NCBI GenBank assembly: GCA_030248065.1
Contig: JASAMV010001038.1
Span: forward strand, 80,027-144,026
Reading direction: 5' to 3'
DNA: 64,000 bases
Origin: Rhynchonema sp. JSB1_4
Taxonomy: Eukaryota > Nematoda > Chromadorea > Monhysterida > Xyalidae
The notes below the pieces were generated by a model that saw nothing but the letters and a program-made list of their open reading frames with translations, was not told where the DNA came from and ran no database searches. Position numbers and translations under genes: made by a program. Shown here one piece after another: positions 5,561 to 47,488 of this stretch. The stretch's first letter is position 1; each line of letters opens with the position of its first letter.

Positions 5561-6145
5561 AGCTACGGCCCTGGGATGCATGCCCCCAACCCTCACCAAC
5601 AGTTTCACGGCCACGGTCAGTCAAACACAGCAGAGTAGAGATTATAACTCAACGTGCTTCAAAACGACCACAACATGTGTGTGTTGAGCGCTCAATGTTT
5701 GAGAGAGAAGGGGTGAGACCACCCACCCTTCAATCAATTTCTTGACCAACTGCTGCCCACATTGCTTGTGGTCAAATGCACGGTGCTTAAATGTGATGTT
5801 TCACGACTGCTCGTACAGTGTTAAAGTCGCACATTTGAAAGAGCTGAACTTGTCAAACAACAACGACTGCTGTGAAAGAATTTCAATTAGCATTTTCTAA
5901 CAACATTTCGATTATTTCGTTTTTTGACGTCATCGGAGAAAGGTGCCCATCACTGCGGCACAGCTGCAAGCTCTGCCATCCGCAGCCATGAGCCTTGCAC
6001 TTCACACAGCAAACACAACGGTGGACGAACTTCACGGTGGATTAACTCATTGGCGCGTGTTAAAAAATGGTTATATTTCAAAGCATCGCATATTTATTTC
6101 GGCTGCTGGTGCTGTGCTTCATTCACAAACAAATAAATAAATAAC

Positions 6146-9100
6146 AACAATTTTTGAAGCATAACGGTAACAAGAAAGAAAAATGCCCCAAGAATGATGA
6201 TAAGGGTCATAATTAAATGATTAGTCAAGGATTGGGTTTTGATTCTCGATGAATCCTTGATTTCGGTGGAAAAGTCGATCTGATGAATGAACTCACGGTA
6301 TTACCAACTCACGGTTTTCTTTCCAGTTTTGTCTTTCGCTTGTGGCGATGGCGATATATTTCAGCAAAATAAGCATATGTGTGTTAGCATTCCCAGACAA
6401 AAAGTTTTTTACTGTTTTTTCAGTCCAACTCTGATAACCGGACCGAGGCTTAACTGATTTACGTAGCTGGTTCAACGATTTCAATGTCAAGGTGTGGTTT
6501 TTGGACACACGTTTCTCAACCGTTTTGGGTTTTGGAAGAATGCGATGGTGCACCAAGTCATCGTCAGTGCAGCACAGTATTGATCATTCTGTTTACAGCG
6601 CTCAGGCCTGCTGCTATTTTACGTACCTCACAAAAACCCATCAGACCAAAATAACGTTCATCCCCACACAACACATAGCATAATTATGACACAGTCCCTA
6701 AAAGGCCAGCTTTAGGGGTCAGCTATTGGGCACCCAGTAGTCTGTGTTTGTTTGGCCCCACGCCAAAAGCTGCGTGTGCGTGCTGTGTGGGATGCGTGTG
6801 TTGACTTGACAGACATGGCATAATATTATTGTGGTACCCGTCCAAGCACCATGCACGTCACGACCGGCTCCAGTTCCGGTACCATGATAATACAAGGATC
6901 CCTTTGGTGCTGAACTGGAACCTCTGGGAACAGCAGTGACCGTTTGCAGCTGGGGCCAATTACGCACAAATACACAATAGAAAACGACGCGCTACCATTT
7001 CGTGGCTCACGCATTTGAAATGGGGGATTAAAGGAGAAGCTGGGACGTAAATTGTGAAATTTGATCCCATTGGATTTTTATGCTCAAACTGGTGCACGAG
7101 AAGGGAGAAATTTTTGTCGCGTATCCATTTTTTGTTCCATAACCCGAAATAACTCCTCCCTCAACAAACTGACTCTTTCCGGGGGACGTCCACAATAGAA
7201 TGCAACACGTTTGAGTGTTAATCACGCATGTAAACATGTCTATAATTAGTGCAATGTTATCATTCTTGTGACTTTTGATGATTCGTGGGAAAATGTTCAG
7301 GTCAGCAATTGAGAAAAGAAGCTGGTAATAATCGTGGGAGCTGAATACGACTGTGGTTTGTATGCTTGTGCACACGTTGTCTGGAACCTGTTGCTTTCGT
7401 TCCCACGTCACACTGCAACTCATCAAGCTGGTTTTGTTCCCAGTCTTCTTTATCACTTGATACGCAAAATTCATTAAACACGCAGATAATTTTGGTCCCT
7501 CAAGTCAGTTTAAGTGCTGGTCTGACATACATAGGTTACGGTAGTTTATGTACAACAAAAATGGTAGTTAATCATTATTCCTGACATCAATATTATATGA
7601 ATTCAAAGCGAACACGTAAATATGAGTGTCGAATTCATAATCGGAACCAAAAACCTGACAGCTTTTTTGTTATTCCGGTCCGGAACTACAAATATGCACA
7701 ATTAATAGATCACATTACGCTCAACGCTACCACACCGCGTGCGCCCTGCGGTCATCAGGTGCCTGCTTGTCTGTGAGGGCAAAAAATCTTTAAAGGGCGT
7801 GTGCAATGTAAAAGATGCCAGTTATGAATTGATGACCATTAACATGATGTGGTTTATGGTTTTTGGCTTTGCTGATTACGAAACGTCAAGCAGTGCACCT
7901 GCCCGGAGTGTCACAAAAACATCAAATTTAGCACCATGTAGCTATCCCTCCTTTCGGGTAATAGTCTTCCGATTTCGGCTTTTTCTGATCTTTTCCGGCT
8001 CCACAAATCTGACCAACAATGGAGAACATGGATTTATGGGCTTGCTGACAGTCTGGTGTTCAGAAAAAATGCCGTTTCTTGCGGACACCTGGTGGGGTTC
8101 ATGATGAAGAAAGTGCTTTCTTCCTGACGAAATTGGTGATTCATGAGCCATGATGACCTTGCGCACACTAGCTGACACACAAATTTGCACCGAAAGCAGT
8201 AATATCGCGGCAATAAAAGCCGCAAGTTCATGTTTTATTCAGCAAATTGCACTTAAAAAGACGTGACTTTTGTTTTTTGGGATGGATTTGTGATTCGATC
8301 TTTATTTTATGGCCGGACGCCTTTTACGACCCACACCGGGTGGTCGCCGGGTCCATGTTCTTTTTTACAAGTCTCCGATGGGCAGTTTAGCAGCTTCCCA
8401 CAAAGCTTAACAACCGAAACGGAAAAGAAAATCAAAAAATTTATGTGAATTTTGCTTTTGTTCAGCGTTTTGGATCATGAAACATGCAGAGGTTGCTGGG
8501 GGCTTCTTTTCGTATTTCTTATTGCAGAAATGCCAGACGTACATACTGTATGTACATAATTCACAGAAACAGCAGGTGATATGCAAAGTCAATACAGCCT
8601 AGTAGGAATGTAAGTAGGAGAACACATACTGCTAGTTGCGGGTTACGGTAGCTGTCGCTTCAAAACAGCAAGGGAAGCAGTCAACCCCCCCCCAATATTC
8701 GACCTCAATTCGCGTTGACATGAGTCAGGTTGTGCAACGCGCTACAACCAGGAACTTAAAATTGGCCCATACTCAATCGGTAATAAAAGGACGAACATTT
8801 TTTGGTATTACGTGAATGTAGCGCGTCGCTTTTGACCGCTTTTTCACAAAGACAACGACAAAAACACACTCTAACCTTTATTTGAACGTATTGTATGTAT
8901 GTATTGTGTGCTGCCCTTTGTCATTACGTGTATTGTGCAACAAACTCTACTTGAATGCCTGTATTTGCGAAATCTTCAATTTGTGTCGATAAAGGTTGTT
9001 CATCTTTTAAAGGCGAGAAAAAGTTGATAATGCGAAATTTATGTGTGGTTTCTCTTTCATGTCACGGTCATTTTCGATCAGAATCCCAACTGAATTACTG

Positions 9101-34159: not shown

Positions 34160-35407
34160 GGTGTTGAATCATCAATGACTGATCAATCACATCAATATTC
34201 CCTTCGGAGTTTCACCAAGCAGAAAAATGGCTGATGCGATCGGACTGACCTGCCAATCAAAAGAGAAATTCTGATCGGCAATTCGATTTCGTTCGATATC
34301 GGAGCAGAGGCAGAGTTCGGTAGGAAACAAAAGGAAAAATTTTTTCGTTTTTTCCTTTTTTTCCTACGAAAAAATGGTACCAAAAGAAAAGGAAAAAATA
34401 GAGGAAAAAATGAAGCAAATTCATTTGTCAATTCAAATTCAAATTTTATTTGCAAGCTCACGCAAAGACCTACAACGAGATCCGGAAAACACCTGAAAAA
34501 TAAACGAGTGTACGCAACACAATGATAATCATGAATGAACAAACGACAAAACGTACCAGAGAAATTTTAAACCAATTGTTGATTGTTGACAATTGTCATC
34601 TGCAGTGTAGTGGCAGGCCCATGTGTGGGAGGTAAGTATGATGCGGGGTTGGGACCGGAAGCGTGAGAGGCACTGTAGTGGCTGGGGGGGATGGGGGGGG
34701 GATTCCCCCAGGGTAGTACTTGGGGGGGGGGGTGGGGGGGGTCCCCCCCAAATTCATCTATCTATCGTCAACACTTTTTGATTTCATCTATCTATCGTCA
34801 ACACTTATGGGCAAATCTATCTATCGTCAACAAATTCTGGGAGCAATCTATCTATCGTCAACACATTTCGACCCCAAAATGGGTATTTTTGCCTCAAAAT
34901 GGCTCAAAATCGGTATTTTTTGTCCCAAATAGGCAAAAAATCGCGCGCTACGCGCGGATTTAGTACATCTGAGTACATTTTCATTAATATTTACACATTA
35001 TTACATGCTTAGTACACTATACTATACCTTGATTTTTGGCGACCCCCCCACCATCTGTCTATCGTCAACAAGTTTGGGTCGACCCCCCCCCAGATTTCGG
35101 ACTTGGGTCATCTATCTATCGTCAACACATTTCGGGTCCCAATCAGAGGTCGCAATCGGGCCGGGTTTGGCCGGCCCGGCCCGGCCCGAGCCCCCAAATC
35201 TCCGGCCCGGCCCGGCCCGACCCGGCCCGGCCCGACCCGTACCCCCAAATCTCCGGCCCGGCCCGGCCCGAACCCCCAAATCTCCGGCCCGGCCCGGCCC
35301 GAATTTTTGGCTCAGATTTTAACCCAATTTTTGTCATAATTTTTGCGATTTTTTTAATCATTTTTTTTGTTGAAATTTCAATGTTTTCCATGAAAAAGTC
35401 GCCAGAT

Positions 35408-35805
35408 CAGTGTAGTTCCTGGTCCGGAGGGGGAACAGACGTACCCTCCACTATTTTCGGAGGGGGAACAGACGTACCACCCTGGGGGGGGAAGTCCCAA
35501 TTTGGGGGGGGGGACGGAAAAAAGTCATTTTTTGAGGTCGAAAAATTGGACTATTTTTGCCTTCTTTTGCGAAAAATCCCCTATAAAAAGGGTATTTTGG
35601 CGTTTTTTTGGAGGTTTCACCTAAAGTTTACCTATTTTTGGCCTAAAAATGCCTATTTTAGGCCTAAATTTGCCCATTTTAGGAAAAAATTGGGGGGAGC
35701 AGACGTACCCGGAGGGGGAACAGTGGGGCAGGCGTACCTCGGCGGGGGAACAGACGTCCCCGAGGGGGGGTCCCCCCCCCCCTCCCCCCCCCAGGAACTA
35801 CACTG
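35408..35805. mobile_element. Element E: 398-bp hAT-type MITE nested in D
   Basis: The ends are CAGTGTAGTTCCTGGTCCGG and CCAGGAACTACACTG, and the duplication CGCCAGAT lies at 35400-35407 and 35806-35813. The word GGGGGAACAGACGTACC is repeated about five times. The interior is T-rich with paired GGCCTAAAATG motifs. The long ORF through it is a by-product of simple sequence. Confidence 0.93.
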
Positions 35806-35822
35806 CGCCAGATAGACAATAC

Positions 35823-36134
35823 CAATGGTGTGGCTGGGGGGTCCCCCCTAGGCACAGTAGGTAGATGACGCGCCATCCTGGTACAGTAGGTAGGTCGCCG
35901 CCCCCCGGCTGGTACAGTAGGTTGCTATTTTTGGCTCAAAATGGTATAAAATCCATATTTTTCATTCCAAATAATCGAAAAATTTTGAGGGTTTTAGAGT
36001 ACATTTTCATCTGAACTTGGACATAAAAATTTTGTTCCCCCCTAGCTCGGCCGGTCGGTACAGTAGGTAGGTTGATTTCAGGCCTTTCTGGTGGTACAGT
36101 AGGTTGATTGCACGCCTGGGTAGCCACACGACTG
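35823..36134. mobile_element. Element F: 312-bp hAT-type MITE nested in D
   Basis: The ends CAATGGTGTGGCTGG and AGCCACACGACTG are mirror images with some decay. The duplication GACAATAC lies at 35815-35822 and 36135-36142. Repeated word GGTACAGTAGGTAGG. Confidence 0.9.
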
Positions 36135-37159
36135 GACAATACTGATCACTTACTTGCTGAATCCGTCAGAAATTTTAGTATTTTGGACAAAAAAACCCCT
36201 ACTTTTTCAGTAAAATAAGTCACTTCAGAAGCTTCGGGCCGGGCAGCCCGGCCCGGCCCGGCCCGACCCTCCAAATCTCCGGCCCGGCCCGGCCCGGCCC
36301 GAGCCAAAAGCCCAAAATCGCGGCCCGGCCCGGCCCGGCCCGGCCCGGCCCGAGGTCGGGCCGGCCCGATTGCGACCTCTGGTCCCAATCTATCTATCGT
36401 CAACACCCTGACCAAGTACTACAGTGGATTCCCCCCCCTAAGGGGTATCTATCTCGAGTCAACCCTTAGGGGGGGGATGGGGGGGGAAGGGTACCATCTC
36501 GAGCCGACCCCAAAGGGTATCTCGAGTAAGTAGATTTATGGTTTTCAAAGGCAAAAATAGGTGTTTTTCGACCTCGGGACCCCCAAAAATCGCACCCAAA
36601 AATGGTCATTTTAGGCCAATTTTCGGCAAAAATGTCAAAAAGTACCCATTTTTAGGCCAATTTTGCAGTAAAATTGCATGCAAAAAACGGCCTTTTTTCG
36701 CCTTTTGACGGACCATAGGGGTATCTTGGGTAGCCTCTGGGGGGTATCTCGAGTAAGTCCGAAACCTTCCCCCCCTAGGGTATCTTGGGTCGATTGGCCT
36801 GCCACCACACTGGTGAGAGGTATGATTTTGGTCACCCAAAAAGGCGAAAAAACACCGTTTTTGTGATACAATTTTGGCCAAAAATTGAGGTAAAAATAGT
36901 ACTTTTTCAAAATTTTCGCCGAAAATCGCCTAAAAACAGGTATTATGGGTGGGTTTGCGCGCGGAGCGCGCGATTTTTGGGAAAATAAGGTCGAAAAACA
37001 CCGATTTTTGCCTTAAAAAGGTATAAAATTGCTTGTGAGAGGTATGATTTGGAGTTGTGAGAGGTAAGTACTCAACCCCCCCCAACCCCCCCTCGGGTTT
37101 TGTGGTAGGTAAGTACTGAGAGGGGGGTAACCCCCCCCCCAACCCCCCCCCAGCCACTA

Positions 37160-37593
37160 CCGTATTGTCGGAAATAGAACCCCCCATTAATTGACCTGAC
37201 CCCCCCCCCCATTGATAGAACCCCCCTACACCGCTCGACAACAAACATCGAACCCCCCCTCTAATTGACCCCCCCCCCATTAATAGAACCCCACCCCCAA
37301 CCTTCACCGTACCACAGATTAGTGGTACGGTAAGGCTGTGTTGTTGTGTCAAACGTTGTTTAAGCTCGCGTGCACAACAGAATACAGCTTTTTAAGCATA
37401 ATTGCCTCTGTTAAAGTTAGAAAATACCGAAAACAAGTCATTTTTATGGGCATCAGTAACAACGATTTTTTTCGTCGGGGCGCCAAATGAAAAATATAAC
37501 CCCCCCAATAATTGACCCCCCCATAAATTGAACCCCCCCAAAATGACCCCAGTGAAAAAATAGAACCCACGTGTTCTATTTCCGACAATACGG
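37160..37593. mobile_element. 434-bp TA-flanked MITE inserted in the right end of element A
   Basis: The terminal repeats CCGTATTGTCGGAAATAGAA and their mirror are flanked by TA (37158-37159, 37594-37595). Both ends carry reiterated AATAGAACCCCCC and AATTGACCCCCC words. The central part (about 37310-37490) is shared with the copy at 37982-38409. TA flanks suggest a mariner-type element. Confidence 0.88.
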
Positions 37594-37609
37594 TACTATG
37601 GTCATCTGC

Positions 37610-37941
37610 AGTGATAGTAAGGAAAAAAATGAAAAAAAAATATTTAATTTTTTTCCGAGGAAAAAAATGACAATCAAAAAAAGGAAACAAAAAGAAAAAA
37701 AATGGTGATCGAGGAAAAAAAGAAAAAAAAGAGCATTTTTCCCCCAAAAATTGACCCCACCCCCCGCCCCAAAAATTGACCCCCCCAATAATCGAACCCC
37801 CTAAAATCAGAAGAACCCAAAAATCAAGAAGAAAAAATAACACCGGATTTGGAACCCTCTCGGCAAATGGTGAAAACAATTTTTTGAAAATGATCGAGTG
37901 AAAAAAAGTAGAACCCCCGTATTCTATTTCCGACAATACGG
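37610..37941. mobile_element. Partial copy of the CCGTATTGTCGG MITE
   Basis: The right end (GTTCTATTTCCGACAATACGG-like, ending at 37941 and followed by TA) and the inner AATTGACCCC words are present. The left terminus is not recognisable, and the left part is A-rich simple sequence. Confidence 0.5.
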
Positions 37942-37981
37942 TATATAAAAGTCTTTTACTGCAGATTTATACCGGAATATA

Positions 37982-38409
37982 CCGTATTGTCGGAAATAGA
38001 ACCCCCCCCATTAATTGACCCCCCATTAATTGAACCCCCCCCTAAATGGCTCGAAATCAAAAATAGAACCCCCCATTAAATGACCCCCCCATTAATAGAA
38101 GAACCCCACCCCCAACCTTCACCGTACCACAGATTAGTGGTATGGTAGGGCTGTGTTGTTGTGTCAAACGTTGTTTAAGCTTGCGTACACAACAGAATAC
38201 AGCTTTTTAAGCATAATCGACGCTGTTAAATGTAGAAAATACCGAAAACAAGCCATTTTATGGGCATTATTAACAATGATTTTTTTCGTCGGGGGGCCAA
38301 ATGAAAAATATAACCCCCCCCAATAATTGACCCCCCCCCATATATTGAACCCCCCAAAATGACCCCAGTGAAAAAATAGACCCCCCGGGTTCTATTTCCG
38401 ACAATACGG
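37982..38409. mobile_element. Second complete CCGTATTGTCGG MITE
   Basis: 428 bp with the same ends and central region as 37160-37593, flanked by TA (37980-37981, 38410-38411). Confidence 0.85.
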
Positions 38410-38821
38410 TATATCGGATTTATATCGAAAAAAATGGTCGGAAAAAAAGGAAAAAGAAGGAAATATTTCCTTTTTTTCCTTTTTCCTGTTCGGAAAGAAA
38501 ATGAGGGAAAAAATTTTTTTCCCAACTGTTCCGGCCGCCCGGCCCGAAGCTTCTGAACTTCTGAAATCTGAAGCAGTGCTGTGGCTGGGCGGGGGGGGGG
38601 GGGTGGGGGGTCCCCCCAATGGTACCCTACCCGCCCCGGCCTGGTACGCTACCCCCCTACCCGCCCCGCTCTGGTACCCTACCCGCCCCGATTTTTACCC
38701 TAAAAAGTGCAAAAAATTTCGCGCTGCGCGCGATATATGTACTTTTTAGTACATAAAAACAGGCACGCGAAAAAACTTGTGTTGTACCCTACCCGCCCCG
38801 AAAAATCTTCCCCCTCCCCCC

Positions 38822-39688
38822 CAGTGTAGTACTTGGTCAGGGTCAGTGTAGTGGCAGGCAGATGGTTGCAAGGTACCCTTGGGGGGGGGGATGGATCCAG
38901 ATGGTTGCAAGGTACCCCCCTACCCAGCCTCCAGAAGGTTGCAAGGTACCCCTGGGGTCCGAAAAAAGGGTGTTTTTTGCATGCATTATACAGCAAATTT
39001 GGCCGAAAAATTGGTACTTTTTTGCATTTTGGCCGAAAATTTGCCTAAAATACCTATTATATGGAGCTTTGCGCGCGGAGCGCGCGATTTTTGGGGTTTT
39101 GAGGTCGAAAAACACCCATTTTTGCCTATAAAAACCATAAATTGATGGTTGCAAGGTACCCTCCGGGGTGGTTGCAAGGTACCTACCCTTCCCCCCCCCC
39201 CCATCCCCCCCAAGGGGTGGTTGCAAGGTACCTACTCCTTAGGGGGGAATCCCCCCCCATCCCCCCCCCCAACCACTACACTGGTCAGGGTGTTGACGAT
39301 AGATAGATTGAGACCCGAAATGTGTTGACGATAGATAGATGACCCAAGTCCGAAATCTGGGGGGGGGTCGCCAAAAATCAAGGTATAGTATAGTGTACTA
39401 AGTTGGTAATAATGTGTAAATATTAATGAAAATGTACTTAGATGTACTAAATCCGCGCGTAGCGCGCGATTTTTTGCCTATTTGGGACAAAAAATACCGA
39501 TTTTGAGCCATTTTGAGGCAAAAATACCCATTTTGGGGTCGAAATGTGTTGACGATAGATAGATTGTTCCCAGAATTTGTTGACGATAGATAGATTTGCC
39601 CACAAGTGTTGACGATAGATAGATGAAATCAAAAAGTGTTGACGATAGATAGATGAATTTGGGGGGGACCCCCCCAAGTACTACCCTG
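38822..39688. mobile_element. Element H: second copy of family C, nested in G
   Basis: The ends CAGTGTAGTACTTGG and AAGTACTACCCTG are flanked by CTCCCCCC (38814-38821, 39689-39696). It carries the same TCTATCTATCGTCAACAC words as C, in reverse orientation, and a GCGCGTAGCGCGC palindrome near 39457. Confidence 0.87.
38844..39283. mobile_element. Element I: 440-bp hAT-type MITE nested in H
   Basis: The ends are CAGTGTAGTGGCAGG and CCACTACACTG, and the duplication GTCAGGGT lies at 38836-38843 and 39284-39291. The word GGTTGCAAGGTACC is repeated about six times, with an internal GCGCGCGGAGCGCGC palindrome near 39071. Confidence 0.92.
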
Positions 39689-40332
39689 CTCCCCCCCAAA
39701 CCGGATTTCCCCCCCCCCCCAAGATCCCAGGTACACTACCCCCTACCCGCCCCGGATTTTTCCACCTATGTACCCTACCCGCCCCGCAAAAGTAGCCACA
39801 GCACTGATCTGAAGTGACTTATTTTACTGAAAAAGTAGGGATTGTTTGTCAAAAATACTAAAATTTCTGACGAATTCGGCAAGTAAGAGATCAGTGTTGT
39901 CTATCTGACGACTTTTTCGTGGAAAACAATGAACTTTCAACCAAAAAAATTGGGTCAAAAAAATCGCAAAATTATGACAAAAATTGGGTTGAAATCTGAG
40001 CCGAAAATTCGGTCCGGGCCGGGCCGGCCAAACCCGGCCCGATTGCGACCTCTGATTTGGGTCCTCCCCTCCCCCCTTCCCCCCAGGTGGGTACGTCTGT
40101 TCCCCCTCCGAAAAAGGGGTTACCGCCCAGTGTAGTGGCAGGCCCATGTGTGGGAGGGAGGTAAGTATGATGCGGAGTTGGGACCGGAAGCGGGAGAGGT
40201 ATGATTTTGGTCACCCAAAAAGGCGACAAAACACCGTTTTTGTGATACAATTTTGGCCAAAAAATGAGGTAAAAATAGTACTTTTTCCAAATTTTCGCCG
40301 AAAATCGCCTAAAAATAGGTATTATGGGTGGG

Positions 40333-41236
40333 CAGTGTTGGAGGTACTCTGGAGGGGGATACCTACTGTACCGCGCTCGGAGAGGGGGGATACCTACCAG
40401 TGTTGGAGGTACTCTGGAGGGGGGATACCTACTGTACCGCGCTCGGAGAGGGGGGGATACCTACTGTACCAGAGCCGATGGCCTGGGGGGGTTATGTACC
40501 TAGGGGGGGTTGGGGGGGTTAGGTTTTGGGGTGAAAATTTTTTATGTGTTTATTATGTGTGGAATCGTGTGAAAACGTAGTATTTGCGCGCGTAGCGCGC
40601 GAATTTCGGGTAATTTGAGGTAAAAAACACTGATTTTGCACTAATTTCGGCCATTTTGGTCAAAAATTGGCACTTTTGGGGCAAAATCGGGGGGGGGGAT
40701 ACCTACTGTACCGGGGTGAAAATCGGGGGGGATACCTACTGTACCATGCCAAACATCGGGGGGGATACCTACAGTACCCGGCGAGGGGGATCCCTACGGA
40801 ACTGGGGGGGGCTACCCCCCCCCCCCCCCAAACCCCCCCCCCCACCTCCAACACTGATACCTACTGTACCAGAGCCGATGGCCGGGGGGGGTTTTGTAAC
40901 CGGGGGGGGGGTTCGGTTTTGGGGTGAAAATTTTTTATGTGTTTATTATGTGTGGAATCGTGTGAAAACGTAGTATTTGCGCGCGTAGCGCGCGAATTTG
41001 GGGTAATTTGAGGTAAAAACCACTGATTTTACACTAATTTTGGCCATTTTGGTCAAAAATTGGCACTTTTGAGGCAAAATCGGGGGGATACCTACTGTAC
41101 CGGGGTGAAAATCGGGGGGGATACCTACTGTACCATGCCAAACATCGGGGGGGATACCTACTGTACCAGGCGAGGGGGGCTACCTACTGTACTGGGGGGG
41201 GGCTACCCCCCAAACCCCCCCCCACCTCCACCACTG
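40333..41236. mobile_element. Element K: hAT-type MITE nested in A2
   Basis: The ends are CAGTGTTGGAGGTACTC and CCACCTCCACCACTG, and the duplication TGGGTGGG lies at 40325-40332 and 41237-41244. The word GGGGATACCTACTGTACC is repeated, with a GCGCGCGTAGCGCGCG palindrome near 40979. A sister copy (K') sits inside it. Confidence 0.92.
40398..40856. mobile_element. Element K': 459-bp copy of K inserted into K
   Basis: The ends CAGTGTTGGAGG and CCTCCAACACTG are flanked by ATACCTAC (40390-40397, 40857-40864), which is part of K's own repeated word. K and K' share interior and palindrome and are very similar, so the self-insertion is young. Confidence 0.93.
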
Positions 41237-41543
41237 TGGGTGGGCTTGCAATTTTTGGGAAAATAAGGTCGAAAAACACCGATTTTCGCCTTAAAACGGT
41301 ATAAAATTGCTTGTGAGAGGTATGATTTGGAGTTGTGAGAGGTAAGTACTCAACCCCCCTCGGGTAACCCCCCTGCCACTGCCATGGACTTCCTGTTCCC
41401 CCTTCGGACCAGGAACTACACTGCTTTTCCTTCAACTTCGGTATTTCATTTTTGTTCCAGACAGATTGAGTTTGGCATTGCTAAATATATCGCACACAAG
41501 CTACAAGCAGGGGACAAACGCACAGTAGGCAGCATCGGCAGAT

Positions 41544-44500
41544 ATGGCCAGCGGCAGCAGCGAGCGAATCAAGTCTCCGTTCGGCCAAATGCTGGATTCG
41601 GTTCGGTCGGCGTGCGAAGAGATCGATATTTGGAGCAGCGAAATGCAACAGGATCTGCCGAAGAAATGGGAGAAGCACGGCGATCTGATCATTCTGCCTG
41701 AGACCTGCTTTCTGCTGCCCGCTTGGCGTAAACTCGGTGGGTATTGGGTTTTGTGTTTTTTGATGATTGATTTATCTTATTAGTTTTATTGGTGTTCAAC
41801 AACGATCGGCTATTGCACATGCACGGGCCAGTAAAAAATATGCTGAAAATGTCGGAGAATGTAAATTACCATAATTTTAGTCACTATGTTTCGCTTATCG
41901 GAACCGCCGTTTTTCCCCCAATAGAAAGGGGCCCAGGGTAGTATCTGGGCGGCCGGGGAAGCGGGTCGGGAGGCTGTAACTATTGTAACGTTTGAAACGT
42001 TGTGTGTAACTTGAAATACGCATGCCCTGGTTCTGTTGAGGGATTGGGGCACTACCCTGCGTTGGATCATGCCGTTTTTTTTCGGTGCAACGCAGTAGCC
42101 ACCTAAAATAATTGTTGAATACATTTATGGCCGTCAGGCAGTCAAATCCATTTCAGATGTCATACGATCTCAAAAAGTATTCTCACCATATATGATTCGT
42201 CGACATTTACAAAAACGCGATGGAACTGAAAAAATGAATTGTGAATTGTGTTTCACAGGTCCGAGACTGTGGCAGTTGGTGTGTGCTTCGTTGCAAGTCA
42301 GTCGTATCGCTCGCAAACGGCGTGTGGCTGCTGATGAATACCGAACGCCGCGCATTGATTTGTTGTTCGGCAAAGATGGATGGGTGGAACATGTGGACAA
42401 CAAAGTCAGGTGTGTTGGCCTGGCTTGTTCCAAGCCGTCTGTGTCACTTGTTGAGCCGTATCAATCTTGAGAGCAAAAACTGCGATCACTCAGGCCAAGC
42501 ACGGTTTGGAACCCATCTTCATAGAGAATCGGAGATACTAATTCCCTCGGCGCAGCGTGAACGTAATTACCAAGCGTATAATTCCGTGGTTATGGGGCTT
42601 TTTCAGTTTTCATGTTCAGATAAATCCTCGCTTATACGGATGCTTCGTGACTCCTTTTCTGACTAATTTTGTTTTTTTTGCATGTGATGCACACCCTATT
42701 TGATGTCCCACAAATCTGGGCAGGCAAGCGAACACAAATTGTAGCCGTGTAATGCTATTTGCTTTGTTCCGATCCCTGAGATTCAGTGACCAGCCAGAGC
42801 CAACAATTATTCAGTTATATCGCAGTATACACAAATTTTGCGCACAATTTTGCCACTGCACACACTCGCGCCCAATTATAAATGACTAGAGCTGAAGCCA
42901 GCTGCACACCTCTGGACTACGGGGTCAGTTGTCAGGTGACTGACCCGAGCGGCTTTATTTTGGCAGCATCACGTTACACGACAAAGCAAACAAGCCCGTT
43001 GCGCCCCCCATCTTTCTGGCGCGTGCAAATAACGCTGAATTCTGAATTGCACTTTTATTTACATTGTTATATTCGCCACCGCCGCAGTGTGTAATGCAAT
43101 TCAATGCGCGTTGCTTATGTTCCAGCTGCAAGCAAAGTTGTTGAGAAATGGCTGTTGCGTTTGCGCGTTTCGTTTTTAGTTGTGAAATGAGGGACCGTGT
43201 TGTAAAAACGTACCCAGTGAAAATTTGGGATCGCAACAGAGATAATGGTGCCGGCCGTCGGCCCTGTTCGTCATGGCATATACAGCATTTTTGGTCACGC
43301 ATTTGAATACTCATAACGTGGTGAACTGAGCTGAGCTAATCTGAAGGATAACGCCAGATTGGAGATTGAAAGATACCGCTTTGATTTTCGTTAGGGAGTT
43401 TCACCACATCCCGACTCTCTATCAATCAATGAAGCATAATTTTTTCTGGACATCTTTCCAGATACCAGTACGATGTGACCAAATGCATGTTCAGTGTCGG
43501 CAATATCAGCGAAAAGCTGCGCGTCGCCTCATTTGACTGCCGACAAGAAGTCGTCGTTGACTTATTCGCCGGTTCGTTGGGATTTGTTATTTTTGGCGTT
43601 TGTTTTTTTCCTATCGTGCTTTTATTCAATTTTTCGAAGGTCGTGACGATGGGTATTGCAATACAAATACTATCGGTCGTTCATACGCCGCAATCGAAAC
43701 AGTTTCTCGTGCAGTCCGTACCGTATAGGGAATCCGCCAGCTCATGGCACTCAACACACAGGCTTGCAGGCTACATTACTGGCATCAATGAATGCATGTA
43801 TTCTCAGCAGTTATGAGTTGAAACATCCCCAAATTTTGCAACAGTGCAGAGAAGTGTTATGTCAAGCAGCATATCAAAACCGAGTAAATTAAAAAGCAGT
43901 CATCAAAGTATGACACTAACCCAAAGTGTACATTTTGTATAGAAAATGGCGTGTGCTGCTGCATGCGCTGTGTCTATAAAAGATGCCACGTGCCGATGCC
44001 GATGGATTGCCTATACTTATTATGTCCATTCTCATATGTTGTTGTGTGTGTCTTTGAGAGAGAAAGGCAAGGCATTTCTGCTCGTCTCTCAAAGGCACGC
44101 GCAACAACAGATGTGCACGCACTGCCCAGGGACCTTTTTTGGGGGGGAGGTGCCCGGCCCGGGACCCCCAACCCCCCTTGGGCCACGGCCCTCACGACCT
44201 CCCGCCTGCGGCGGGGCCCATCGCGGGCGGAGGGGGGAGACCCGGGCTTTTTGGGGGCGGTAGTTCCTGGGGGGGAGGGGGGCCCCTAAGGTACACTAAC
44301 CGCCGCGACAAAGGTACACTAGTACACTAACCGCCGCGCCAGGTACACTAACCGCCTCAATTTTGCCTAAAATCGGCATTTTAGGCCTAAAATGGGCATT
44401 TTTAGGCCTAAAATGGGTGATTTTCAGGTCAATGATGTCAAAAGTCGCCAAAATACCCTTTTTATAGAGAATTTTTTCCAAAAAGGGGAAAAAATCGGTC

Positions 44501-47488
44501 AAATTTTCTACCTCAAAAAGTGACTTTTTCCTGGATTTGGGTCTTCCCCCCCCCCTTCCCCCCAGGGAGGTACACTAACCGCCGCACGGAAAAAAGGGGT
44601 AGGTACACTAACCGCCGCGCCGGACCAGGAACTACACTGTTGTGAAGTATTGAGAAGGTCACGTTGTGGCGTATCCCATGCCAAAAACCATCCGTTATTT
44701 GTACCCAGCGATGGAAACATTTTTCTCTCATTTGTTGATGTTGCAGGCATTGGCTATTTCACACTACCGTACCTGATGCACGCACACGCACAGCATGTCT
44801 ACGCGATTGATTGGAACCCGGATGCGATTGAAGCGTTGGTTCGAAACATTCAGGTGAACAGCGTGCGAGAGACAAAGTGCACCGTGCTGCAGGGCGACTG
44901 TCGAAAAGTGTGTGATGGGTGTTTGGGGTTAATTTAGATGAGAAAAGAAGTGTATTTTACTGTGACTGGAGTTGATCGGTGGAGTTGGCTACACTGAAAT
45001 ATTGGAGCAGTATCCTGGTAATGTCAGAACAGCAGGCTAATAGCCTGAGGCTATGCTAAACAAATTTGTGTGAGGACAAAAAAGTGTATCGAAATTGGTG
45101 GGTGCGGAGTTGGTATCTGCGTCATGGTCGCGTGACTAGAACAGATTCGATCCGTTCCTCCGCTCACCAGCTAGCTGAGAACCGTCATGCCAGTTTCCCG
45201 TCAAATGTCCCCATAGTTGGCCAATATATACGTTCACTTGGTAACGGCAGGGTCTCGATGGAGAAGGTTGACTGTGTGACCTTACACATGTGCATCATTC
45301 TGAGTGCAGGTGGTGCCGTACGGTGTGGCCGATCGCGTCAACGCCGGCCTGATTCCAACGGCGCGCAACTATCTGATGACGGCGTGTCGTGCCCTGAAAC
45401 ATCAGGGTGGCGTCGTGCACGTGCATGAATGCGTGACGCACGCCAAGATGCTGGTGGAGGGCGCGAGTGGTGAGAAAGGTGGGATCGGTTGGCAAGGATT
45501 GTTGGATGTGTTTTGGGTCCTTTCGCCAACACAGTTCGTTGACTTTTGTGAATACGCCACCGATGAAAAACCGATGGATTCTGTCTTCGACCACAACTTG
45601 TCTACTCTCGATGACCTTTACAGATTATTTTATTCATTGACTTCGACACATTTAGATGATCAGCCGCTGGACTATTGATTTGTTCTTTCCAGAAAGTGCG
45701 TCTGTTCCTGATCCGAGTGTGGGAGATGAGTCCAGCGCTGATTCTGGCATTTCCACAACCGAAGAAGGTTTGTGTTCATTCCGTGGTGATTGCGTGATGT
45801 TTGGTTTTGATTTTTGTTAGTTATGTTTTCATTTTTTGAGACCTGACGCTGCCAACCACTAATCAATCAATGACTGTAGGTAATGCATGTTTAGTTGTCC
45901 TTTGGGCGAAACATTCTTCTTTTTCATTTTTATCGGTTGGACGTTTTTGCCATTTTAGGATCGTCTCACGGTTCCAACAGTCCTCCGCCCCCGGACACAA
46001 GCGTAAATGGTGATTCAGACGACGATATAGTGTTGCAGCCAATGAGGAAAGGGTCGAGACGCGAAGTAGGTGCATATGTTGTGTTTTGTGGTGTTTGGTT
46101 GTGCATTTGTTTGGATTTCGTATCCCTGTAAGTTTTACCTGGCTAATCCGGTATTGGACATAGAGTATGTCGTGTTGTGCTTTGTACCGCAGGCTTTTCA
46201 GTTGATTTTTGTGAATTTAGCAAATCGGTTAATAGTGATAACCGTATTTAATTCACAGGATTGCAAACAACAGGACGCTTTTGTCTGCACAAATGAGCGC
46301 TTTTTAGGCAGGCAGCTTGAGCTTGCCGCATAGTCAAATTCTGCTCAGAAAATGTTTTTCTGGTGGCATGGTCATGATATTAGCTTGCCCAACTTGAGAA
46401 ACACGCAAATTATCAAACACACCCCCAACTTCTGGCCGTTTGCATTGTGGTAGCAGCTAATTGGGTGATCCGAGCATGAAATGCCTCGTTCTGCCATCAC
46501 CGGCCCAGTGCAGTCACACAATTTGTGTACTTGAAAGCGCCTGTCATCTGTTTGCAGAAGATCATGCTCGAACTGGCTGCCGAACGTACGCCATCGCCGA
46601 AAGTCGAGCCCGAATTTCTCCGATCGAAATGGTCCAAACTCGACCCGGCCTATCGCTGTTTCGCCGTTGAGTGCGCGGCGCAGCTGATCAAGTTCATGAA
46701 TAATTTGCACGAGGTCAGGCTGTTTGTGAATACAGTCTTTCCTGTTTATTATGGTGACATCAGCCGGACGGGACCCGGGTTCTTGTGTCATTTTGTGAGG
46801 AATACTTTCGAACGGTGATGTGGCTTCCAGGCCAGGCTGTTCGTCTGAGGGTTTCACGTTTGACAGCGCAGACTGTGCTGCCAACACGCTCGGGCCTTCC
46901 GCAGCCGGCCACCCTGTACGAATCGGTGGCACACTGCTTTGGAAAACCAATCTTGACAAAAAGTCGAAAAAGCAAAATGTTTTGAGAATTCTGTCAGTTG
47001 TGTAACCTCGATCCAAAGGTTTTCTAAAGTGTTGATTTCCGTCAGAACCCACTCCGGACTTATCAGAAATGTTTCAGCGTCTGCATACAAGCCATACAAG
47101 GGTTTTGCTGTGCAATATTGTTCGCGTTGAAATTGAAAATCCCGAAGCGAAAAATTGTTCGCGTTGAAAACTCCTTGCACAATAAATTTTGTATTTTATT
47201 TTTATTTCATTTTTTCGGGATTTTTATTTCGGGATTTTCGACCTCACCCATTGTTTCAGTGTTCAGTTGAACAAAACTGAAAGGCACAAATTTATAAAAC
47301 TGACTGTATGAGCGTGATCAATTACGCACATGCGTTTCCAGAAGCCGTCACACACCTACACGTGCACGATCGAGCGAGTCGGCAAGATCAAATCCTACGC
47401 GCCACATATGGATCATCTGGTGTTGGACGCACGCGTACAGTTGGAACCGAATCATGCCATCGATTTTGATGCCGTCTTGACTGTTTGA
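41544..47488 (+). CDS. TYW2: tRNA wybutosine-synthesizing protein 2 (TYW2)
   Basis: Nine exons: 41544-41736, 42259-42409, 43462-43571, 44747-44907, 45310-45469, 45693-45767, 45959-46065, 46558-46713 and 47342-47488. All junctions are GT-AG with compatible phases; the product is 419 residues (human TYW2 about 450). TYW2 transfers the aminocarboxypropyl group of S-adenosylmethionine to the tricyclic base in wybutosine formation at position 37 of tRNA-Phe. Diagnostic segments: GWVEHVDNKVRYQYDVTKCM, then VVDLFAGIGYFTLPY (SAM motif I, about residues 146-158), YAIDWNPDAIEAL, GDCRK, VADRVNAGLIPT and the C-terminal SYAPHMDHLVLD. Unusual: exons 6-7 encode a Ser/Pro/Asp-rich insert (about residues 259-319) not typical of the family. 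A transposon lies in intron 3, 107 bp before exon 4, and the start codon is 120 bp from the transposon nest. Confidence 0.93.
44262..44639. mobile_element. Element L: E-type MITE in TYW2 intron 3
   Basis: The right end CGGACCAGGAACTACACTG stops at 44639; the left end is eroded (GGTAGTTCCTGG at about 44260). The word AGGTACACTAACCGCCGCG is repeated five times, and the inner T-rich GGCCTAAAATGG motifs match element E. The adjoining 44118-44260 is GC-rich simple sequence, perhaps part of another element. No target duplication was found. Confidence 0.75.

Follow-up and report, generated by a model that had tools for sequence, protein, structure and literature searches.

The transposons Hermes, Herves and Ac/Ds have hAT-type ends and target-site duplications (TSDs), and Ac/Ds also carries subterminal repeats. 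The BED finger of Hermes binds such subterminal repeats (STRs), for which exact phasing matters, and these lie in the antisense direction in the left end (STR2-7) and in the sense direction in the right end (STR1-5) (PMC10368747). Herves transposase binds a subterminal motif of its own element, with the binding regions of hAT elements differing from one another (PMC3143072), and each of four hAT-encoded CGGBPs binds a motif that matches the subterminal region of its own element (PMC8097297). For CACTA elements, coevolution of the subterminal repeat with its binding protein has been proposed (PMC2613891). How a transposase and its scattered sites can change jointly is an open problem: altering one site alone achieves nothing, and an altered enzyme is left without its substrates. 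Here we describe short elements from a 64,000-nucleotide stretch of the genome of the nematode Rhynchonema sp. JSB1_4 (contig JASAMV010001038.1, positions 80,027 to 144,026; hereafter the window), many of them stacked at window positions 34595-41423, and from 50 further loci of the same genome, within an assembly of 204 Mb in 5,747 contigs. In this assembly, mitochondrial COX1, with TGA translated as Trp, has ~64% identity to COX1 of arthropods and of the nematode Heterakis and 76% to the best of the 120 listed hits, which indicates an invertebrate host; the exact SL1 leader of nematodes is absent, and an HtrL fragment gave no match.

Every lineage of these elements has a subterminal word of 14-20 bp, present in roughly 2 to 12 copies. 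In the family that we call F5, the word was held constant while the backbone drifted and was then, on some branches, replaced in place at all sites, with the terminal inverted repeat (TIR) and the interior kept. A single genome offers several cases in which related backbones differ in the word at each site, and each F5 word is present in thousands of copies. The order, rate and modularity of word change are therefore readable from sequence and open to testing in binding and excision assays.

Replacement of the F5 word

Words were counted as exact matches in the genome, with the reversed pattern as control. The 15-mer GGTACAGTAGGTAGG has 5,717 matches, and the 17-mers GGGGGAACAGACGTACC, GGGGGAGATAGTGTACC and GCGGCGGTTAGTGTACC have 2,833, 2,067 and 4,837, respectively, as compared with 0 for each of the four reversed patterns, which bears out an initial annotation of this DNA that had described family-specific repeated words. 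The three 17-mers are the words of subfamilies 5a, 5b and 5c, which share the F5 TIR CAGTGTAGTTCCTGG and carry their words at the same five registers, site 3 having been lost in one 5b copy. The annotation had also assigned one word to each family. This holds for each subfamily, but the TIR family CAGTGTAGTTCCTGG has three words, and another family, F8, has two variants.

Across 13 F5 elements, word sites are 0.956-0.994 identical within subfamilies and 0.467-0.683 between them, whereas the backbone is 0.863-0.962 identical within and 0.826-0.882 between. Columns that are fixed within but differ between subfamilies number 47 in the words and 16 in the backbone, against 16 and 109 that are polymorphic within subfamilies (Fisher 3e-17, a descriptive figure, as the columns share ancestry). 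When blocks were masked at random, with no more than 30% overlap with the true sites, this contrast was attained in 0 of 5,000 trials. Ten circular shifts did so, all of them no more than 7 columns from the true place, and 12 of 440 did so in a smaller, earlier set.

One locus, L051 (G000:C9:3500-13499), is a palindromic contig, an inverted duplication in which the elements are mirrored about the middle in slightly different copies; it may be an assembly artefact, a haplotype fold-back or a real palindrome. Its mirror copies were left out of the 13-element set and of the flank and TSD counts, and remain in the end delimitation, word layout, register and target-preference data and in the earlier set used for circular shifts. 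L006 repeats the L005 element in the end delimitation and word layout data.

An unrooted tree of the 13 F5 backbones, built with the word sites and 2 bp around them excluded, has the form 5a1 | 5a2 | (5b,5c), in which the 5a1 split has a support of 100 and (5b,5c) of 98, and 5b, 5c and 5a2 have 96, 82 and 78. The possibility that the comparison is circular, with subfamilies defined by their words, was considered and rejected: the backbone alone yields 5b and 5c as clades and leaves 5a paraphyletic, and assignment to subfamilies is therefore independent of the words. The split within 5a was recognized because backbone identity within 5a fell from 0.893 to 0.863 as more copies were added. Backbone and word identity are 0.802 and 0.940 between 5a1 and 5a2, 0.866 and 0.688 between 5a2 and 5b, and 0.882 and 0.673 between 5b and 5c. 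By parsimony, 5a would be the starting state, with 5b and 5c derived from it. The left half of the word, GGAGGGGGA, is common to 5a and 5b and the right half, TAGTGTACC, to 5b and 5c, so the halves changed separately, one by one, in keeping with the element-wide replacement of a more constant and a variable half that the initial annotation had described.

We then compared words and their 8-bp flanks between and within elements. Flanks are closer to those of the corresponding site in other subfamilies (0.72 upstream and 0.69 downstream) than to those of other sites in the same element (0.26 and 0.40), whereas words show the reverse, at 0.56 for the same site between subfamilies and 0.89 within an element; a smaller set that included one mirror copy gave the same pattern. 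Because the flanks match the orthologous site and not the sister sites, we conclude that replacement is confined to the word, stopping at its edge and leaving the flanks site-specific. Site 4 is compound in all three subfamilies, site 3 retains its own start, and the unusual ending of site 1 in 5a2, GCGGTACC, is echoed in 5b (GCGGACC). As these oddities outlast the switch, site-by-site substitution toward a new optimum appears to fit better than copying between sites.

The excess of 0.89 over 0.56 is also the formal signature of neutral concerted evolution, in which short-tract gene conversion or slippage would homogenize the words while the binding protein stayed unchanged, and turnover of tandem repeats has been proposed for the targets in VANDAL21 (PMC5735166). 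We consider this process unlikely here. The sites of F5 do not lie in tandem, the flanks show no homogenization, the peculiarities of sites 1, 3 and 4 described above persist through the switch, the word remained unchanged over a deep backbone split, and conversion tracts would need to stop at the word edges at every site. Escape from silencing would likewise change words quickly between close relatives, if the words were targets of small RNAs (piRNAs, as the initial annotation suggested) or of another sequence-specific system. However, the backbone accounts for the larger part of the element and would be targeted equally, and yet it changes less between subfamilies and more within them, and the renewed likeness of sites within an element would be left unexplained; we regard this explanation as highly improbable.

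The words of F5 also keep apart along the genome. On contigs C1-C135 the three words have 88, 63 and 99 listed places, respectively, and among these, same-strand neighbors at most 360 bp apart comprise 136 same-word and 5 cross-word pairs, so that the free mixing within a family by which the initial annotation proposed to refute its own model is not seen in F5. A further 18 pairs on opposite strands are probably neighboring insertions.

Ends, architecture and nesting of the word families

To identify TSDs in the window and the 50 loci, an 8-bp repeat adjoining inverted ends was required, with one mismatch tolerated, and one flank was displaced by 1, 2, 3, 5, 8, 11 or 14 bases as a control. The scan gave 53 pairs at the true offset, representing 48 distinct sequences (31 from family F15 and 17 others), and 0 at each of the seven shifted offsets. 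In the group of short word-bearing elements alone, TSDs are exact in 31 of 38 and have one mismatch in the other 7 of 38. TIRs start with CAGTGTAGT.., CAGTGCTGT.. or CAGTGGTGT.., with degenerate CACTG, CAATG or CAGGG at some ends. T at position 2 and A at position 7 of the TSD (nTnnnnAn) were found in 57% of 49 TSDs, symmetrised and with those of family F12 and a few others included, and in 76% of the 31 TSDs of F15, a family with a PF05699 domain. We take this target preference and CAGNG ends to be typical of hAT elements, and 8-bp TSDs with hAT-type ends presumably do not suggest a Mutator-like element (MULE), the type of the VANDAL transposons, which encode a VANC protein (DUF1985/DUF287). 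Nor are these CACTA elements, as the TSDs are 8 bp and the ends of CAGTG type, not 3-bp TSDs with CACTA ends. Own length is ~312-474 bp in copies without evident inserts, and the combination of short elements with words in thousands of copies is that of miniature inverted-repeat transposable elements (MITEs). Based on the 8-bp TSDs, the CAGTG ends and the target preference, these are probably related, putatively non-coding hAT-type MITEs, a judgment that we make jointly with the transposase-tracking explanation given below.

For comparison of layouts, each element was turned until the TIR end with an adjoining G run lay on the right. All 174 own-family words in 38 elements (F1, F2, F3, F4, F5, F7, F8 and F10, including two L051 mirror copies) point in the same direction, a feature absent from the initial annotation. 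Counted from the left tip, the first matching word begins at 21-25 bp in F2, F3, F4, F5 and F7; the more complete F10 copy has it at 31, and F1 at 32, the search word for F1 covering just the final part of the full word. The second follows 30-39 bp after the first in F3, F4, F5, F7 and F10 and at 36 in most F1 copies; in five of six F2 copies (one with an insert) the next full word comes ~96-115 bp on, with a compound site between. Exceptions, in which the search word does not match the first site, are four F5a copies, the F8 copy, one F1 and one F10.

Interior alignments, scored as z over dinucleotide shuffles, reach z 26 to 61 for F5a/b/c, F3/F8 and F1a/F1b/F7, and F4, F2 and F3 are linked at z 10.7 to 17.4. 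Because the interiors align, most families appear to descend from one architecture, with the placement of F5, F10 and F11 less clear from interiors alone. Some shared features are narrower than first described. A GGTAC/GTACC core had been reported for most words; GTACC ends the words of F1-F5, but F8 and F10 have ATACC only, and the words of F7, F9 and F11 end in neither. The central palindrome, found as CGCGC-NNN-GCGCG, is present in representatives of F1, F2, F3, F4, F7 and F9 but not of F5, F8, F10 and F11, and the window's own F1 copy has lost it.

Two further pairs of families appear to repeat the F5 pattern, with one to three elements per side. F3 and F8 are alike in TIR and interior (z 51), and the word is TTGCAAGGTACC in the former and CTCGAGATACC or CCCAAGATACC in the latter. 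In three F10 copies ATACC is preceded by GG (24) or AG (2), and in three F10x copies by CC (15) or AC (2), with an interior match of z 12; these counts use one of the two L051 mirror copies, an 844-bp stretch without a matching TSD. One F10x copy is truncated and another is internally deleted without a matching TSD. F10 contains short tandem doublets. The doublet SSATACCSSATACC has 3,735 genome matches, and the first 100 listed places comprise 67 GG/GG, 30 CC/CC, 2 CG/CG, 1 CG/GG and 0 GG/CC; its reversed control gives 1,229, and the CC/CC form, palindromic in the reversal, would alone give such matches. F1 and F7 have an interior in common (z 26-35), unrelated words and partly different TIRs.

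Other repeat-word sequences were seen in passing. Doublets of CGATACCCGATACC at G000:C109:21052 and G000:C126:21765 may represent a third word of F10 type, in addition to GG and CC, and L027 (~360-860) and L057 (~6115-6575) contain further sequences made of GGTATTGGTATTGG/CCAATACCCAATACC.

In the window, positions 34595-41423 are a stack of short transposons, each inserted in another. As the initial annotation had it, these elements have 8-bp TSDs and CAGTG-type ends, and every TSD named below is an exact 8-bp repeat. Its count of at least nine families becomes eight word families of CAGTG type within the interval (F1, F2, F3, F4, F5a, F7, F8 and F9) beside the GGCCCG-repeat family F12, and the word AGGTACACTAACCGCCGCG belongs to an element at ~44290-44618, outside the interval. 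In the left nest, F5a and F1 lie inside F12, inside F7, inside F8, inside F9; in the right part, F3 lies inside F7 inside F2, and F4 lies inside F4, inside a second F9, inside a broken F5a. The features are as follows.

34603..37600, + strand: F9 element, outermost of the left nest; TSD GTCATCTG at 34595-34602 and 37601-37608
34671..36812, - strand: F8 element; TSD GTGAGAGG; words CTCGAGATACC / CCCAAGATACC; backbone that of F3
34709..36426, - strand: F7 element of the left nest; TSD GATTCCCC; 7 words TGTTGACGATAGATAGAT with at most 2 mismatches
35144..36381, no strand assigned: F12 element; TSD GTCCCAAT; CAGAGGTCGCAATCGGG ends; GGCCCG repeats
35408..35805, + strand: F5a element, 398 bp; TSD CGCCAGAT; GGGGGAACAGACGTACC and variants in five registers
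35823..36134, - strand: F1 element, 312 bp; TSD GACAATAC; word ACCTACTGTACC (+ strand GGTACAGTAGGT)
38574..39806, - strand: F2 element; TSD ATCTGAAG; word GGGGCGGGTAGGGTACC (+ strand GTACCCTACCCGCCCCG)
38822..39688, + strand: F7 element inside F2; TSD CTCCCCCC; 6 words
38844..39283, + strand: F3 element inside F7, 440 bp; TSD GTCAGGGT; 6 words GGTTGCAAGGTACC
40061..40127 (left limit approximate), - strand: F5a remnant split by the second F9; F5a word at 40090 (-); other end at ~41387-41423
40128..41386 (right end approximate), + strand: second F9 copy; no matching 8-bp TSD seen
40333..41236, + strand: outer F4 element; TSD TGGGTGGG; word GGGGATACCTACTGTACC
40398..40856, + strand: F4 inside F4, 459 bp; TSD ATACCTAC, located within a word copy
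~44290..44618, - strand: further element beyond the stack; F5c words GCGGCGGTTAGTGTACC at 44290, 44569 and 44602

The outer F9 has the repeated word GTGAGAGGTA(A/T)G and an interior that is homologous to that of F3 by alignment; it is split by F8 and by a TA-flanked element. Two elements of this TA-flanked type, at 37160-37593 and 37982-38409, have ends CCGTATTGTCGGAAATAGAACCCC and a repeated motif of their own, ATTGACCCCCCC. One copy is located in the right end of the outer F9, and a third right end of TA type lies at 37930-37941. Families are inserted in one another elsewhere in the genome as well (L018, L014, L041 and L061), with F2 in F14, F14 in F5b and in F4, F15 in F3 in F2, and F5a probably in an F15 tip. 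From this mutual insertion, several families may have been active in overlapping periods.

Candidate binding partners of the words

A trans-acting DNA-binding partner is suggested by the words themselves, because they are conserved more than the backbone within a lineage and replaced between lineages. We favor as the probable explanation that the words bind the DNA-binding domain of a hAT transposase and that the MITEs follow its shifting specificity while the TIR stays. If the MITEs are non-coding, the main selection on a lineage would act through being moved. Each word would be a binding site of a BED-type zinc finger or of an accessory DNA-binding protein; when the specificity of the transposase changed, only elements with matching sites would be mobilized, and this selective mobilization would drive all sites of an element to the new word. 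The TIR, contacted by the catalytic part, would remain unchanged through the switch. The switch could have taken place either in the MITEs themselves or in the autonomous parents from which they were cut down. On this explanation, non-coding elements should follow the specificity of the enzyme, and it should be the word, not the TIR, that determines the transposase by which a given MITE is moved.

The initial annotation had called for a hAT transposase gene with word-bearing termini. A search for the hAT dimerisation domain (PF05699) gave 330 candidates, of which 150 were scored and 48 loci fetched, corresponding to 47 places because L030 and L047 overlap. Of these loci, 32 lie in F15 and 5 in F14, so that these two other hAT families account for 37 of 48; the remaining 11, some with F15-like sequence, could not be delimited. 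At L041 the F15 copy is a nested insertion inside F3 inside F2. Profile searches with PF14372 and PF14291 gave no matches, and their controls gave none either. PF04937 matched one place (L059), where no element ends of the MITE type were seen. A search for BED domains gave 32 matches, and among the five whose surroundings were examined, one lies in F15 (L015), two in F14 (L057 and L058) and two in L066 (G000:C3010:4000-11500), a cluster resembling host genes with BED-finger open reading frames, in which none of the 11 words tested is present as an exact match.

F15 has the TIR CAGTGTTCGAACGGG and the word GGGATCGGGAT, and F14 the TIR TAGGGATCGGCG and the word GGTGTCGG. Both families, which retain transposase remnants, carry their own words at both ends in one main orientation in 35 of 36 elements (three F15 entries in this count, at L039, overlap), with 373 matches in one direction and 45 in the other for F15, and 59 and 0 for F14. 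The comparison of DNA-binding domains between families that the initial annotation had proposed covers these two distant hAT families only, whose BED fingers differ, with no BLASTP similarity to each other. F14 also occurs in two deletion forms: copies of 1.0-1.3 kb have the dimerisation domain (L012, L013, L014, L018 and L036), and copies of 900 bp have the BED finger (L057 and L058).

Several observations weigh against binding by a hAT transposase. No transposase with the TIRs of these MITEs was found among the 48 PF05699 loci, with 150 of 330 candidates scored. At 14-20 bp, the words exceed the length of the BED site in Hermes (AAGT/C), and mutation of inner left-end repeats did not dramatically cut Hermes transposition (PMC10368747); not every word copy, therefore, need matter. 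The pattern outside F5 comes from one to three elements per side, damage affects two of the three F10x copies, and the interiors of F10 and F10x match moderately. F8 carries two word variants, F1 and F7 differ in part of the TIR, so that TIR constancy is not absolute, and 45 of 418 F15 word matches point the minority way.

A host protein, whether an activator, a chromatin or replication factor or a repressor, could instead bind the words, with lineages tracking its changes. The words are G-rich with triplet-like blocks, as are many zinc-finger targets, and the L066 cluster shows that a host-like gene locus with BED domains exists in this genome. The authors of the Hermes work also invoke an unknown host factor (PMC10368747). 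We think this rather unlikely: the genome contains different words side by side, each with thousands of copies, so many such proteins would be needed, and F14 and F15, with their transposase remnants, show the same one-orientation words. A host repressor in particular would, we infer, fit less well than transposase binding, because an element escaping it should gain by losing sites, not by a concerted change that keeps them all matched. Of the interpretation in the initial annotation, the element-wide replacement of a word, the more constant and the variable half, and the lack of free mixing are supported; a coevolving DNA-binding protein is not established, no matching transposase having been found among the loci searched.

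More tentatively, binding by hAT transposases, or by accessory proteins that hAT elements encode, might extend to a two-module address code, in which the cleavage ends are kept and the words are switched element-wide, half by half, following proteins with diversifying and recombining recognition modules. If such a code exists, one genome would hold many mutually exclusive channels of mobilization.

Comparison with known systems

The initial annotation knew of no described superfamily with this feature, which is too strong, as the principle of diversifying subterminal words has precedent in CACTA (PMC2613891) and VANDAL (PMC5735166) elements. In CACTA elements (En/Spm, Tgm) and their TNPA-like proteins, as in F5, the TIR is conserved and a two-part subterminal repeat has diversified, there between two families of one species; the CACTA element, however, is large and coding, its repeats lie in both orientations, and the divergence comes from alignment of consensus motifs, not site by site on a common backbone (PMC2613891). 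In Arabidopsis VANDAL elements, non-coding target motifs diverge with a DNA-binding protein encoded by the transposon, VANC, and several target units change together (PMC5735166, PMC10398659). VANC targets, though, are often tandem and are thought to change by repeat turnover (PMC5735166). The tandem arrangement is not found in F5, a family of short animal hAT-type elements in which dispersed sites with unlike, site-specific flanks are replaced in place. The coral CMITE families resemble ours in having a common interior and differing parts recognized by the transposase, but they are of piggyBac type, with TTAA TSDs and a length of ~100 bp, and it is their TIRs that vary rather than subterminal words (PMC2872659). 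Element-wide, half-by-half switching of words in place on one backbone, replicated in several families of animal MITEs, was not found described in the literature searched, a coverage that leaves most subscription journals outside.

Close in element type are Hermes and Herves. The accessible text of these reports describes one motif per element, with no close relatives with switched words shown; our words are longer, and no transposase matching our MITEs was found among the loci searched. Like the MITEs, both have a repeated subterminal motif near both ends that is specific to the element (CG/AATTCAT in Herves, AAGT/C in Hermes; PMC3143072, PMC10368747), and if the ends of Hermes are read from the tips, its STRs would run in one direction along the element, as the MITE words do.

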